Assembly (NCBI RefSeq): GCF_000012985.1
Contig: NC_007645.1
Location: 4,796,581 to 4,860,580 of the forward strand
Source: Hahella chejuensis KCTC 2396
Lineage (GTDB): Bacteria; Pseudomonadota; Gammaproteobacteria; Pseudomonadales; Oleiphilaceae
Direction of reading: 5' to 3'
Length of the DNA: 64,000 nucleotides
The notes under the pieces were generated by a model that made no database searches, had not been told where the DNA came from, and was given only the letters and a program-made list of their open reading frames with translations. A program made the translations under genes and the position numbers. This document shows, piece after piece, positions 3,013 to 62,672 of this stretch (position 1 is its first letter; each line of letters begins with the position of its first letter).

Positions 3013-3165
3013 TTTATTAACATGGCAATGATATCAGCATGTTAATAATCAGGCGCAGGGAAGCGCTTGCGCAGCGGCGAGCCGCGGGAGACAGGGCCTC
3101 CTGCGCAGGTCAGACCCTGTCGTTGCGGACAAATAGAAGGAAGCTGTTTGTCCGCCTGATTAATA
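3013..3165 (-). repeat. Dispersed hairpin repeat, copy A (complete, about 153 bp)
   Basis: Oriented on the minus strand, it contains in order: ATTAATCAGGC; stem 1 (GCGGAC...GTCCGC arms, 3144-3155 with 3125-3136); stem 2 (GACAGGG...CCCTGTC); a GC-rich stem near 3063-3090; GCGCCTGATTA; and a perfect 10-bp terminal stem, TATTAACATG/CATGTTAATA (3015-3024 and 3038-3047). It fills the gap between the ATP-grasp fragment and the 3' end of the kinase gene. The same units in the same order recur at 13128, 43551 and, truncated, 62595. Confidence 0.85.
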
Positions 3166-11234: not shown

Positions 11235-12689
11235 ATGGGAATCTTTCAATTTAGCGGTTCGAAGACAGAACCGGAGCTAAGCTCTGGCATGTCGCCACTT
11301 ATTCGGCCGCAATATTCAAAAATTCTCGCTCTATTTCGCGCAATTGATAGCTTGGCTATCCATTTTTGCTTGCTGGGAACGTTAGCGCTTTTTGGCGTGA
11401 CCTGGAATGAGTCCTATTCCTGGCTAAGCATTATGTTCGTTATTACGTTCGGCTTCTGCGCAGAAATTAGCCAGATTTACTATCTTATGCGCGGGCTCAC
11501 CACCGGTAAGCTTGCATGGTATATCGTCAGATCCTGGATGTTCGCGTTAGTGCTGATATCGCCTTTCGCTATCCTGGGCCTGTTGCCGAACATTGATCTG
11601 GAAGCGCTTGCGTACTGGGCCATCGCCGTACCAGCCACCTTGGTCAGTCTTCATCTATTGCGTCGCATCGCGCTGTTCAGCATCCGCAGACGCAACGTCA
11701 GCTCCAAGCGCGTGGGCATTGTTGGGGCCACCACTCTGGGCGTCAGACTCTACGACTCTTTGAGCAATATGCCCTGGCTTGGTTATAAACTCGCAGGTTT
11801 TTACGACGACCGTATAGACATGACGGATTTGACCCGTCGCGTCACCATCGAAGAAAAGGCCCTTTGCGGCGGTTTTGACAAGCTCTATGAGGATGTTCAC
11901 AGCGGTAAGGTGGACACCATTTACATCACTCTGCCGATGTGCGCAGAGCGTAGAATTAAAGACATGATGGACAGACTCGCGGACACAACCGTTACCGCTT
12001 ATGTCATTCCTGACTTCTTCAGCTTCAACTTGCTGTATTCTCGCCTGACCACTATTCGCGGCATTCCCGCTATCAGCGTTTACGACTCGCCACTGGTGGA
12101 TCACGGCTTCGCCAAGCGCATGACAGATATCGCACTGGGCCTGTTCTTTATAATGGTGACAGCAATCCCGATGCTGATTATCGCGGCGGCGGTGAAAATC
12201 ACGTCTCCCGGTCCTGTCCTGTTCAAGCAGACGCGTTACGGGATTGGCGGCGGCCCTATCAAGGTCTGGAAATTCCGCTCAATGACAGTTTGTCAGGACG
12301 GCGACAACATCCAGCAGGCCACCAAAAATGACGCCAGACTGACCAGGATCGGCGGCTTCCTGCGCCGTACTTCACTGGACGAACTCCCCCAGTTCTTTAA
12401 CGTTCTGGGAGGCAGCATGTCTATTGTCGGCCCTCGCCCACACGCCGTTGCGCACAATGAGTATTATCGCCAGCACATCAAAGGCTACATGCTGCGTCAC
12501 AAGGTCAAACCCGGCATTACAGGTTTAGCGCAGGTTAACGGTTTCCGCGGCGAGACAGCGGAAATGAAAGATATGTCCGGCCGCATCTGGTATGACTTGG
12601 AGTACATTCGCCACTGGTCTCTGGGCATGGACTTCAAGATCATATTCATGACCGTCTTTAAAGGTTTTGTGGGCAAAAAAGCTTACTAA
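11235..12689 (+). CDS. Undecaprenyl-phosphate sugar phosphotransferase (WbaP/WcaJ type)
   Basis: A 484-residue polyprenyl glycosylphosphotransferase that should start the EPS repeat unit by moving a hexose-1-phosphate, probably glucose or galactose, onto undecaprenyl phosphate at the inner membrane. The N-terminal half has four to five membrane spans and a CoA-binding-like domain. The C-terminal catalytic part has a membrane helix, FKQTRYG, VWKFRSM, RRTSLDELPQFFNVL and SIVGPRPHA, all diagnostic. Length matches WcaJ. It is the first gene of the locus with a strong ribosome site, and is followed by about 740 non-coding bases, so it is separated from the rest. Confidence 0.95.
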   Translation: MGIFQFSGSKTEPELSSGMSPLIRPQYSKILALFRAIDSLAIHFCLLGTLALFGVTWNESYSWLSIMFVITFGFCAEISQIYYLMRGLTTGKLAWYIVRSWMFALVLISPFAILGLLPNIDLEALAYWAIAVPATLVSLHLLRRIALFSIRRRNVSSKRVGIVGATTLGVRLYDSLSNMPWLGYKLAGFYDDRIDMTDLTRRVTIEEKALCGGFDKLYEDVHSGKVDTIYITLPMCAERRIKDMMDRLADTTVTAYVIPDFFSFNLLYSRLTTIRGIPAISVYDSPLVDHGFAKRMTDIALGLFFIMVTAIPMLIIAAAVKITSPGPVLFKQTRYGIGGGPIKVWKFRSMTVCQDGDNIQQATKNDARLTRIGGFLRRTSLDELPQFFNVLGGSMSIVGPRPHAVAHNEYYRQHIKGYMLRHKVKPGITGLAQVNGFRGETAEMKDMSGRIWYDLEYIRHWSLGMDFKIIFMTVFKGFVGKKAY

Positions 12690-12705
12690 AACCGCACCGA
12701 ATTCA

Positions 12706-12733
12706 GGCCTTTTCCGTCAACTCGGGAAAGGCC
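12706..12733 (+). terminator. Hairpin after the initiating transferase gene
   Basis: GGCCTTTTCC pairs with GGAAAGGCC with one bulged T, 17 bases past the stop codon. There is no T-run, so it is only a possible terminator. Confidence 0.4.
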
Positions 12734-12937
12734 GCCCTCTCTCCCACACACATCACGTCCATTCCTGCAAAAGCTTTGTAATTTCAACAAATAAACGCCG
12801 CGCACTCCGTAGTGCTCAGTGATGGATTTGGCTACCCACCAACCTAATCACACCCACCTCAATGTCCACATGGGCGCCAGCCATCTCAGTATCCACATTC
12901 AAGCCAATCAACCACTAGATAACCTCCCCCCTACCTC

Positions 12938-12990
12938 TCATTCCTTCTCATTCCTTCTCATTCCTTCTCATTCCTTCTCATTCCTTCTCA
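12938..12990. repeat. Tandem array of the decamer TCATTCCTTC
   Basis: Five perfect head-to-tail copies (12938-12987), then a decayed sixth (TCAATCCTGC). It is pure pyrimidine apart from one A per unit. It lies in non-coding DNA, so copy-number change would not shift a known gene. Confidence 0.9.
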
Positions 12991-13127
12991 TTCCTTCTCA
13001 ATCCTGCGCCCCGCCTACGGCACAAACAACAAGATGAAACTACAGATACAAACAGAGTTTATAACGCCCGTTGTCAGGCTCAGCCGACAGGTAAGGAACA
13101 AGCAATATAAAGAAGCGCGCTCCAATA

Positions 13128-13280
13128 TATTAATCAGGCTGACAAATAGCTTCCTTCTATTTGTCAGCAACGACAGGGCCGGCACATGTCAGGCCCTGTC
13201 TCCCGCGGCTAGCCGCCGCGCAGGCGCATCCATGCGCCTGACTATCAACATGCCAATATCATTGCCATGTCAATATAAAT
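13128..13280 (+). repeat. Dispersed hairpin repeat, copy B (complete)
   Basis: Same unit order as copy A: TATTAATCAGGC; stem 1 GCTGACAAATAG/CTATTTGTCAGC (13138-13149 and 13157-13168, perfect); stem 2 with 9-bp arms GACAGGGCC/GGCCCTGTC; stem 3 CGCGGC/GCCGCG; stem 4 AGGCGCAT/ATGCGCCT; then the CATGCCAATATCATTGCCATG tail seen in copy A, with a minor difference. It lies between convergent genes, like copy A. Confidence 0.85.
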
Positions 13281-13381
13281 GAAGAAGCGGCGAAAACCCG
13301 CCCGTCAGCCACCCCACCCTATATATAGACGCTAGTTGATAGAAAACAACACTCGAGCACGATATATATCCCGCGCATAAA

Positions 13382-13405
13382 AAAGCCCGCATACAAGCGG
13401 GCTTT
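13382..13405 (-). terminator. Terminator of the export-module operon
   Basis: AAAGCCCGC pairs perfectly with GCGGGCTTT around a 6-base loop; on the minus strand it is followed by a T-run. It lies 24 bases past the stop of the Wzc-like gene. Confidence 0.85.
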
Positions 13406-13428
13406 GTGAATTATTTTACTGGAGCAAC

Positions 13429-15717
13429 CTACACTCCGGTTGGCTCAACCCGGCGTTTGGTTTTCGCTGCAGTAACGCCGCTCTCTTTGAGCGGATAGGT
13501 GTTGTAGGAAGAGTAATGAATATATTCATGCTGATTCTTACGCTTCGCCACATCTATCTGGTTCAGCACCGCTCCCACAAGATTGGCGTTAACTTCGCGC
13601 AGACGTTTGATGCCTTTCTGAATCAGCGGCGCTGGCGTATCTTCCGATTTGATGATGTACACCACCGCATCGGAATAAGAGGATAACACCAACGAATCAC
13701 TCACCGCCTGGGTGGGCCCAGAGTCAATAATGATGCGATCATAGCGCTTCTTCAGCACCGCCAACACCAGGTGAAAACGGTTACTGGAAATCATCTCCAA
13801 CGGATTGCTGGGCTGAGTTCCCGCCGTCAGTACGCTGGCCTTAGTGCCATTGAGACGGTGCAGGCAGTGCTCCACTTCCGCCGTACCGGCGACCAGATCC
13901 GACAATCCCGGAGTATCCAGCGGCAGCCCAATCGACTTGGCCAGCATAGAGCGACGCATATCGCCGTCTATCAACAGCACTTTTTCAGTCTGCCCCAACG
14001 CTTCCGCCAGGTTCAACGCTACTGTGGTTTTACCTTCTCCCGGAACGGTGGAAGTCACCAGAATAACTTTATAGGGCTGATCCACCCGTGACAGTATCAA
14101 GCTGGTGCGCAGACTGCGAATGGACTCCGCAAAGTGGCTATGCATTGAGGACAGGAAGCCTTCAAAAGCCGCCTTTGATTTCTTGCTTTTCACTAGCGGC
14201 AGCAGACCAAGCACAGGCAAACGGAATTTTTCCTCAATATCAGCCGTGCTGCGAATAGTGTTATCCAGTGCGTCGCGGATGAAAGCGCGCACGATACCCA
14301 ACCCAAAGCCAGCCATGATCAACATCAGGAAAATCATTCTTTTATTTGGCTTGTAGGGTGAACCCGGAGGAATCGCAGAATCGATGATACGCGCATGCGC
14401 CGCTTGCAACCCCGTCGCTTCATGCGTCTCTTTGGCGCGGGACATAAACAGGTCATAAAGCTTACGGTTGGTCTCAACCTCTCTTTCCAGCTCACGCAAC
14501 TGGAATTCCTTCCTGTTTACGCCCTGCAAACTATTCTTCGCCTGGTCAAGCTGTCTGGCGATGGAACGCTCATTCTCCACAGAAATCTTGTAGGCGGACT
14601 CAATCCCCCTTGCGGCGCGCTGCAACTGCGTTTCCAACTCTGACTTGATGGACTTCAGCTCCGCCATCGCAGAAATCATTTTAGGATGCTTCTCACCGTA
14701 ACGTTTGCTCAATTCATCCACTTTACGCTGCGCATCGTCCTGCCTCTCCTTCAGAGAGCGCACCAGCGGGTTTTCCAGAATCGCCGGCAGCTCCAACAGA
14801 TATTCAGGGGGCGGCGTTTCGCCAAAGATCGTCATCTGCTGATATACGTTGGCGGCTTCCATACGCACGCGGCGCGCTTCCACATTACGCTCGGTCAGCT
14901 TGGACAGCTCTTCCGCATTCAGGGTTTTAACCCCTTTGACATCCACCAGCTTCTCCGCTTCGCGGAATTCCTGCAGGCGCTTCTCTGATTCACGCAGTTT
15001 TTCACGCAGCCCTTCCAGGCTCTCTCCCAGCCACATGGTGGCCTTCTCTGTCAGCGCCATTTTCGCCGCCAGATGGCTTTCTATAAACTGCGTCGCCGTG
15101 GCGTTGGAGATCAGCGCCGCCAGTTTCGGGTCTCTGGCGTCAAAGCGAACTTTAACCAATTGCGTGTTGCGCACCGGATCAATCGTCAACCGCGACATAA
15201 AGATGCCGACTACCGCTTCAAACTTAGCCTTTTCAGAAAGCGGCTTTTTATTGATACGCAGGAAATCGAGCATCTCCGGCTCAAACGGCCACACAGACTC
15301 AATCTGCTCCAGCGGAACCCATTCTTTCCAGTTGAAGGCCTTTTGGCGGAATGGATCAAACTCAGGCATATTGACCAACTCCAGCCGCGTCACCACTTCT
15401 TCAGCCAGACTGCGGGAACGCAGAATCTCGTATTGGGTTTGCAGATATTCCTGATTGTTGCTGTTCAGGCCATAAACATCCTGAATATTGATAACTTTGG
15501 GCTGGTTGTTTTCAATCAACACGGTGGTGGTCGCCTGATACATCGGTTTGATGTACTTCAGCGCCACATAGCCGACGCCTCCCGCCAGCAAGACCAAAAA
15601 CACGATGCCCCACTTGTATTCAAGAATAGCGTTCCAATAACGTCGAAGATCGATGATCTCTTTGTCGCCGGGCGTGTCCGCCAGATGTCGCGGCGGCGTT
15701 GATCTTAAGTTATCCAT
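13429..15717 (-). CDS. Wzc/GumC-type polysaccharide co-polymerase and tyrosine autokinase
   Basis: A 762-residue inner-membrane protein controlling EPS chain length and export. Two membrane spans (about 37-55 and 440-460) bracket a long coiled-coil periplasmic domain of the Wzz/GNVR type. The C-terminal BY-kinase has Walker A STVPGEGKTT, Walker A' LLIDGDMRR and Walker B IIIDSGPT, then a tyrosine-containing tail (HEYIHYSSYNTY) for autophosphorylation. It starts directly after the stop of the OPX gene with no gap, so the two are translationally linked. No cognate Wzb low-molecular-weight phosphatase is present in the locus. Confidence 0.95.
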   Translation of the reverse strand: MDNLRSTPPRHLADTPGDKEIIDLRRYWNAILEYKWGIVFLVLLAGGVGYVALKYIKPMYQATTTVLIENNQPKVINIQDVYGLNSNNQEYLQTQYEILRSRSLAEEVVTRLELVNMPEFDPFRQKAFNWKEWVPLEQIESVWPFEPEMLDFLRINKKPLSEKAKFEAVVGIFMSRLTIDPVRNTQLVKVRFDARDPKLAALISNATATQFIESHLAAKMALTEKATMWLGESLEGLREKLRESEKRLQEFREAEKLVDVKGVKTLNAEELSKLTERNVEARRVRMEAANVYQQMTIFGETPPPEYLLELPAILENPLVRSLKERQDDAQRKVDELSKRYGEKHPKMISAMAELKSIKSELETQLQRAARGIESAYKISVENERSIARQLDQAKNSLQGVNRKEFQLRELEREVETNRKLYDLFMSRAKETHEATGLQAAHARIIDSAIPPGSPYKPNKRMIFLMLIMAGFGLGIVRAFIRDALDNTIRSTADIEEKFRLPVLGLLPLVKSKKSKAAFEGFLSSMHSHFAESIRSLRTSLILSRVDQPYKVILVTSTVPGEGKTTVALNLAEALGQTEKVLLIDGDMRRSMLAKSIGLPLDTPGLSDLVAGTAEVEHCLHRLNGTKASVLTAGTQPSNPLEMISSNRFHLVLAVLKKRYDRIIIDSGPTQAVSDSLVLSSYSDAVVYIIKSEDTPAPLIQKGIKRLREVNANLVGAVLNQIDVAKRKNQHEYIHYSSYNTYPLKESGVTAAKTKRRVEPTGV

Positions 15718-42980: not shown

Positions 42981-43611
42981 AGTCATATCCTAAATAATCT
43001 TTGGTAAATCAATGCCTTGCATAAGGCCGCTTTGCTGGAAGTTTTTCTATTACTTATGAAAACAGGACGAGGACTATAGACAGGACTTCGAAATGGTATT
43101 GCATAAATATCAGATTTACTTACAGACTGCTCAAAGTATATGCAGGGCGATTTCGCTGTCAAGATGGAACAGACATATCCTTTCGTCTTCATGACCAAGT
43201 TTTCTAATTTTTGATCTATTTATAGCAAACGAGACGGAATTCCCCCCACTTTTACCCCTGCGTCGCCCTTGCCAAGCAAATAAACACAGCGACTGACTCA
43301 TGATCAATCTAAATACAATCTGGATTGTCTGACATTCATGCATAGAGGCTTCCGGAGCAAGAAAGTATTTAGTCGTCAAGAAACAATTCTACTCTCCGAA
43401 TAATTGATCGTCGTTCAAATAAGTAAGTATCCCCGTATCCTGACCGACTGGACAGATATAAATAGAAACAACGTCAACGTTTTTTGTTAAGTATAGATTT
43501 CGCGAAGCATTACTACAGCCTGAACGGGCTGAATTGCATCAGCGAGGATATATTAATCAGGCAGACAAATAGCTTCCTTCTATTTGTCTGCAACGACAGG
43601 GCCTGCACAGG
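42981..43611. other. Cold-shock upstream region and dispersed repeat
   Basis: 631 bases. The part next to the cold-shock gene is AT-rich and should include its promoter and leader; I cannot point to boxes with confidence. Copy C of the dispersed repeat starts at 43551. Small ORFs here lack ribosome sites. Confidence 0.45.
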
Positions 43612-43659
43612 TCAGACCCTGTCTCCCGCGGCTTGCCGCCGCGCAGGCGCATCCATGCG
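43551..43659 (+). repeat. Dispersed hairpin repeat, copy C (3' truncated)
   Basis: TATTAATCAGGC; stem 1 GCAGACAAATAG/CTATTTGTCTGC (43561-43572 and 43580-43591, perfect); stem 2 GACAGGG/CCCTGTC with an inner CCTG/CAGG; stem 3 CGCGGC/GCCGCG; then GGCGCATCCATGCG, where identity to copy B stops. The terminal CATG stem is missing. The breakpoint lies inside an opposing ORF. Confidence 0.85.
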
Positions 43660-62594: not shown

Positions 62595-62660
62595 TTAATC
62601 AGGCAGACAAATAGCTTCCTTCCACCTGTCTGAAAACAATAGGTTCTGCGCCTGGCAGCC
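62595..62660 (+). repeat. Dispersed hairpin repeat, copy D (5' fragment)
   Basis: TTAATCAGGCAGACAAATAG and the following CTTCCTTC match copies B and C, but the right arm of stem 1 has decayed (CCACCTGTCTG) and the later stems are lost. Positions after 62632 keep little identity. Confidence 0.65.
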
Positions 62661-62672
62661 TCTGGAATGCAA

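Follow-up and report, generated by a model that had tools for sequence, protein, structure and literature searches.

The window, a 64,000-nt stretch of the Hahella chejuensis KCTC 2396 chromosome, carries four copies of a small hairpin-rich intergenic repeat. Since this repeat is inserted at TA and has ends like those of an IS630-family element of the same genome, it is, judged from genome comparison, very probably a TA-targeting MITE of the IS630/Tc1-mariner type, as RUP is with IS630-Spn1. The repeat would have spread because its copies are those of a mobile element with ends similar to the ends of a larger insertion sequence (IS) of the genus. Two of the four copies, A and B, are full length and two, C and D, are truncated, with the following features:

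3015..3165, minus strand: full-length copy A of 151 bp, whose stem-2 loop carries a 3-bp insertion (nhmmer, hmm 1-148, E = 5.9e-41; sequence; alignment)
13128..13275, plus strand: full-length copy B, 148 bp with the two TA counted (nhmmer, hmm 1-148)
13128..13153, plus strand: left end of copy B, TA and IS630-like terminal repeat (family consensus 17/26 identical to the IS right end)
13138..13168, plus strand: hairpin 1 of copy B, 12 bp with a 7-nt loop (fold; pairs counted)
13172..13200, plus strand: hairpin 2 of copy B, with 11 bp in the consensus of the family (positions transferred from the fold of a single copy, L003)
13204..13220, plus strand: hairpin 3 of copy B, 6 bp (mapped from the L003 fold)
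13221..13240, plus strand: hairpin 4 of copy B, 8 bp (mapped from the L003 fold)
13243..13275, plus strand: hairpin 5 of copy B, the right end itself, 13 bp with two mismatches (mapped from the L003 fold)
13250..13275, minus strand: right end of copy B, TA and IS630-like terminal repeat (family consensus 21/26 identical to the IS right end)
43551..43659, plus strand: copy C, right end deleted (sequence; nhmmer)
62595..62664, plus strand: copy D, an old fragment with left end, stem 1 and a degenerate stem 2 (nhmmer, hmm 3-71)

These four copies are real and not due to chance: the 30-nt left end was matched four times in the window at three or fewer mismatches, against none in 100 shuffles, and the right end twice, in copies A and B only. 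The order of motifs which the preliminary description had assigned to all four copies was found as described and complete in A and B; copy C ends inside the GGCGCAT/ATGCGCC hairpin, without the CATG...CATG tail, and copy D is without recognizable stems 3-5. The covariation described for stem 1 was confirmed as GCGGAC/GTCCGC in A, GCTGAC/GTCAGC in B and GCAGAC/GTCTGC in C, and so was the position of A and B between convergent genes, as judged by a home-made gene caller that placed C and D in tandem gaps. Copy C is broken at TCCATGCG, and in the alignment TCCATGCG also occurs in the flank of the empty site of a relative, G005; another relative, G001, has a degenerate counterpart of copy D. Shortly before copy B, at 12950-12999 of the window, the ten bases attccttctc are repeated in tandem at least five times, in an array that may begin earlier.

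The family is spread over the whole genome. In the 7.2-Mb chromosome the stem-1 motif was found 202 times (88 forward and 114 reverse, at three or fewer mismatches; none with the reversed control), and the left end TATTAATCNGGC was found 187 times in the genome, compared with once for its control. The profile gave 72 matches, 34 of them end to end and a few of them pieces of one copy, in 1.2 Mb of the same genome, G000 (three 400-kb blocks, G000:C1 1300001-1700000, 3080001-3480000 and 4640001-5040000). This corresponds to about one per 17 kb, in good agreement with the earlier guess of a genome-wide family at about one per 16 kb. In the search of relatives, 6 of 29 genomes including its own gave matches at E ≤ 0.001. 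The matches were strong in G000, G001, G004 and G005 and comprised four diverged ones in G006, all belonging to one genus, and two 21-nt matches in G023 were taken as chance; two further genomes of the genus, G002 and G003, gave no match in this search. Among 293 genomes drawn from the order, in each of which two candidates were scored, only its own genome matched at 1e-6, and the exact 38-nt core of the element had Hahella sp. HN01 as sole record in a species-genome scan that may leave out own or near-genome records. The element had no match in plasmid or phage records, and a phage or plasmid carrier was rejected. Beyond Hahella, there is no convincing match of the element as far as searched.

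With both TA the element is 148 bp long, consisting of TTAATCAGGC...CATATTAA (144 bp) between two TA dinucleotides, and is too short for a transposase gene. Its consensus was derived from alignment A2, which comprised 79 of 81 end-to-end copies (71 distinct) after the two shortest had been dropped, and reads, in order, TATTAATCAGGC, hairpins 1 to 4 (12, 11, 6 and 8 bp, respectively) and hairpin 5, which makes up the right end. Such a string of five hairpins is unusual. Compared with shuffles, the fold of one copy (L003) had a z score of −10.2 as DNA and of −8.7 and −7.8 as RNA for the two strands. No Rfam family covered the element, either in the window, where only a tRNA was matched, or at three element loci searched at E values up to 1. 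The preliminary picture is upheld in that the family is structured, intergenic and spread over the genome, shows genuine compensatory changes and is covered by no Rfam entry. Beside copy B, a weak Rfam match to Trp_leader (window 13377-13453, minus strand, 30.4 bits against a gathering threshold of 41) covers a hairpin resembling a terminator, next to the 3' end of the ORF at 13429-15717, and is probably due to chance.

Mobility was evaluated in collinear blocks of 400 kb from three genomes (G000 4640001-5040000, G005 2440001-2840000 and G001 680001-1080000). For 13 of 19 full copies an orthologous empty site, closed within 6 nt, was found in at least one of the two relatives, and for 10 of them in both (as recounted from the rows; the looser rule of the script gave 16, with 11 in both). 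Three more full copies (G000 4785596 and 4809708, G005 2672080) were absent from one relative by the looser rule, with unaligned edges, and the remaining ones had doubtful loci only (two copies) or none (one copy). Nine copies left exactly 2 nt at the empty site, which were TA in one or both relatives for six (G000 4939742, G001 710230 and 929537, G005 2474753, 2540643 and 2570372) and other letters in both for three (G000 4991217 and 5002878, G005 2583605), the latter being read as mutation. From these nine sites and the TA in six of them, the element was defined as TTAAT...ATTAA between a duplicated TA; at the level of aligned genomes, insertion at TA with a 2-bp duplication is thus shown. 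Partial copies were more commonly shared: for 8 of 14, both relatives had at least 40 additional nt at the site, indicating that many of them are older.

A candidate for the mover of this element is an IS630-family IS of the same genus. The search for the DDE_3 domain in the seven genomes of the genus gave 28 matches, and seven complete IS copies, each 1,102 bp with both TA, were obtained (one in G000, three in G001 and three in G005). Their ends have the form TATTAAYCNGGC, with one exception each of TAATAATCCGGC, TATTAACAAGGC and TATTAACCAAGC, and are followed by a stretch like ATCGATATAGGCAT. The frame of this IS encodes 344 amino acids and scored 235 bits with NF033545 (IS630 transposase; cut-off 100) and 135.9 bits with DDE_3, which confirms the protein as a transposase of the IS630 family. 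L134, the IS copy in the element's own genome, has an intact 344-aa frame (NF033545, 235 bits), and the seven IS transposases compared with it were 92-98% identical. The IS copy and flanks at L134 (G000:C1:3355171) and L122 (G005:C1:3892774) are common to two species at 98% identity over 2.8 kb, exceeding the 83-93% of the compared collinear block.

The end identities given above, 21/26 for the right and 17/26 for the left end of the element, refer to the right end of the IS copies L112/L117. Beyond TATTAAT, the right end of the element was identical at 14 of 19 positions, while 433 other TATTAAY sites located outside the element and the IS (2.4 Mb) reached 12 at most (shuffle p = 1e-5); the left end was weaker, with 10 of 19 positions, a shuffle p of 0.011 and 8 of the 433 control sites equal or better. 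Some element copies start with TATTAATCCGGC, which is exactly an IS end. IS copies other than L112/L117 agree a little less well with the element, the right ends of L134 and L112 differing at two of 26 positions. Beyond the ends only stretches of 10-13 nt, taken as chance, were common to the element and the IS, so that the element is not a plain deletion derivative of the IS, and derivation of its interior from the IS was rejected. A second IS630-like group (L111, L116, L120, L124, L128, L131, L133 and L136; about 1,090 bp) and L132 were scanned for the element end motifs only, at two or fewer mismatches; no pair of end matches bracketed them in the way seen for the partner group, and they were rejected as well, their proteins being 24-34% identical to the partner transposase. 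The DDE_3 search and protein comparison did not find an intact IS of the partner group in G004, G006, G002 and G003. Among these, G004, a draft genome of about 130 contigs, has many copies of the element and G006 its four diverged matches.

The truncated copies were strongly biased with respect to the end they retained. When the hits in 1.2 Mb of the own genome were inspected (loci L051-L070 and L160-L199), 27 copies kept the left end and had lost the right side at various points, and two kept the right end (two-sided binomial, 1.6e-6); 18 of the 27 lay in the block 3080001-3480000. The automatic classes were 28 left and 5 right, but one of the former starts only at position 5, and three of the latter are accounted for by an internal deletion, by a copy whose match begins at position 6 and by an overlap on the opposite strand. 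Separate 49-nt profiles of the two ends gave 66 left and 48 right matches in the own genome and contributed two very short left fragments and two short right ones to the truncated copies counted above, showing that the left bias stands but is somewhat smaller. The truncations that could be traced, those of copy C and of the copy at 3265533, were deletions that followed insertion and took flanking DNA. At 3265533 one old insertion has its full length in G001, carries an internal deletion in G004, is reduced to the left end with loss of flank in G000 and is absent from G005. A reverse-transcription-like truncation, which the retention of one end had brought into consideration, was on these grounds rejected for this copy; it was also rejected for copy C, whose flank is lost. 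At 3105421, G004 is without the element and the break points are not placeable. Survival of the left end may reflect selective retention of hairpin 1, deletion with a polarity of its own or some special property of a single chromosomal region, and the MITE account leaves this bias outside its explanation. In the right flank of the truncated copy at L164 (around 12401-12900) and in the same region of three relatives (L223-L225), several AGGACACCCA-like words, representing another repeat, were observed.

The preliminary description had taken the covariation of stem 1 as a sign of selection on folded RNA or a cruciform, as opposed to simple DNA homology. Covariation was indeed present in the additional copies: over the 79 copies, 7 pairs and 15 cells were changed on both sides, compared with 1.4 each in 500 shuffles, the covariation score was 0.034 against 0.024 (reached by 0 of 500 shuffles), further pair types numbered 27 against 23.9 (reached by 5 of 500), and 96.6% of cells paired against 96.1% in shuffles. 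RNAalifold alone gave a poor consensus, and the pairs counted were those of the L003 fold, towards which these values lean. The compensatory changes are real but modest, and that the host keeps the element as a structured RNA or regulatory hairpin array, serving as transcript end, mRNA stabilizer or RNase site, appears unlikely even though paired columns were also less variable than unpaired ones (2.7% vs 7.1% non-consensus letters). Unpaired cells in stems 1 and 2 alone (48, summed from the table) outnumbered the 15 compensated ones, and when the partner was slid by −3 columns, 6 pairs and 11 cells were still obtained; helices 3 and 5 had no both-sided changes and helix 4 one pair. A T-T mismatch in stem 1 was common to 9 of the 79 copies, a subfamily that evidently multiplied with the mismatch. 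Within hairpin 1 the loop, the least variable part of all, had fewer non-consensus letters than the stem (0.8% vs 2.5%), indicating that low variation is not special to pairs. With copies that are about 92% identical in DNA (mean column identity), inserted at TA and bounded by IS630-like ends, the covariation does not show RNA selection, and the contrast with simple DNA homology was not supported. All 34 full copies in the 1.2 Mb lay outside genes called by the home-made caller, in 18 tandem, 13 convergent and 3 divergent gaps, where the intergenic bases, elements included, amount to about 131, 61 and 67 kb, respectively. By these counts, which carry no significance test, divergent gaps look avoided; this scarcity agrees with a host RNA role but is also what would be expected if promoter insertion is harmful. 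Orientation relative to transcription in the tandem gaps was without preference (8 one way and 10 the other, counted from the rows), most of the full copies looked at were missing from a sister species, and no terminator-like stem with a T run was found inside copies A and B, the two scanned, with three matches outside B. The retention of hairpin 1 by most truncated copies would suit a host role, and it could be argued that the hairpin array is a working part with covarying stems, the left hairpin being retained by selection after decay (27 vs 2) and recruited repeatedly to define transcript ends or to stabilize mRNA; we regard this version, too, as improbable.

An origin of the both-sided changes that is silent on RNA selection is hairpin-templated DNA repair (quasi-palindrome correction) in source copies; it bears on nothing but the covariation and can stand together with the MITE explanation. 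Long near-perfect hairpins would allow template switching, and the changes occur in small subfamilies, such as the double change of GACAGGG/CCCTGTC to GACGTGG/CCACGTC in two copies and that of GAC/GTC to GCC/GGC in three. However, copies with one-sided changes are also present, and the pattern is not distinguishable here from two-step mutation with selection; we consider such repair a serious possibility that falls somewhat short of an even chance. The preliminary description had also suggested looking for a RAYT tyrosine transposase. A REP/BIME or REPIN-like family mobilized by such an enzyme would fit a palindromic and intergenic repeat, and Y1_Tnp genes are indeed found in all 7 genomes of the genus that were searched, with 3 matches in the element's own genome. 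These genomes, however, include G002 and G003, both without a match of the element, showing that occurrence of the element is not tied to Y1_Tnp genes. The TA duplication and IS630-like ends of the element are, to our knowledge, not RAYT features, and the duplication contradicts such an origin. We rejected it as extremely improbable.

We thus return to the TA-targeting MITE, by which the repeat family gains a likely mover and mechanism. The IS630 transposase would bind the shared ends and move the element in trans. The five hairpins filling the element would, as a best guess, have been kept as neutral or helpful to the element itself, being easily extruded and harmless beside gene ends, and the few coordinated changes may have arisen in source copies, either by selection on pairing or by hairpin-templated repair. 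Covariation in a repeat family alone does not mean a functional RNA, which should serve as a warning, and a well-populated IS630 MITE with a likely partner in the same genome offers a system for questions of spread and one-end survival.

The element is a further case of a known kind, the IS630-associated MITEs, and an earlier description is possible: a search mostly outside subscription journals found no publication linking Hahella to 'miniature inverted' or IS630. Among known systems, as given in the accessible text of the papers cited, RUP of Streptococcus pneumoniae with IS630-Spn1 (107 bp, 108 copies) is likewise small, intergenic, inserted at TA and equipped with ends like those of an IS630-family IS of the same genome, compared with 148 bp and about 200 copies for the Hahella element (PMC2229807). 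RUP has another sequence; the Hahella element consists of five separate hairpins and, within the searches made, is confined to Hahella. Correia/NEMIS elements of Neisseria (107-155 bp) resemble it in having terminal repeats, TA termini, target duplication and strong RNA folds (PMC2229807, PMC10969869), but their terminal repeat is 24 bp, while the Hahella element has short imperfect terminal repeats and an interior array of local hairpins. ERIC of enterobacteria (127 bp), of which some genomes have hundreds of copies (PMC10969869), is also intergenic with TA termini and a small terminal repeat (PMC2229807, PMC2267715); it is predicted to form a single long stem-loop (PMC2267715), and the portions of PMC2229807 and PMC2267715 available name no IS partner for it. 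Finally, CIR of Caulobacter and Brucella is likewise a single small intergenic repeat with multiple hairpin arms, but it has two of them, a linker and a GANTC motif (PMC2229807), in contrast to the five arms and IS630-like ends of the Hahella element.
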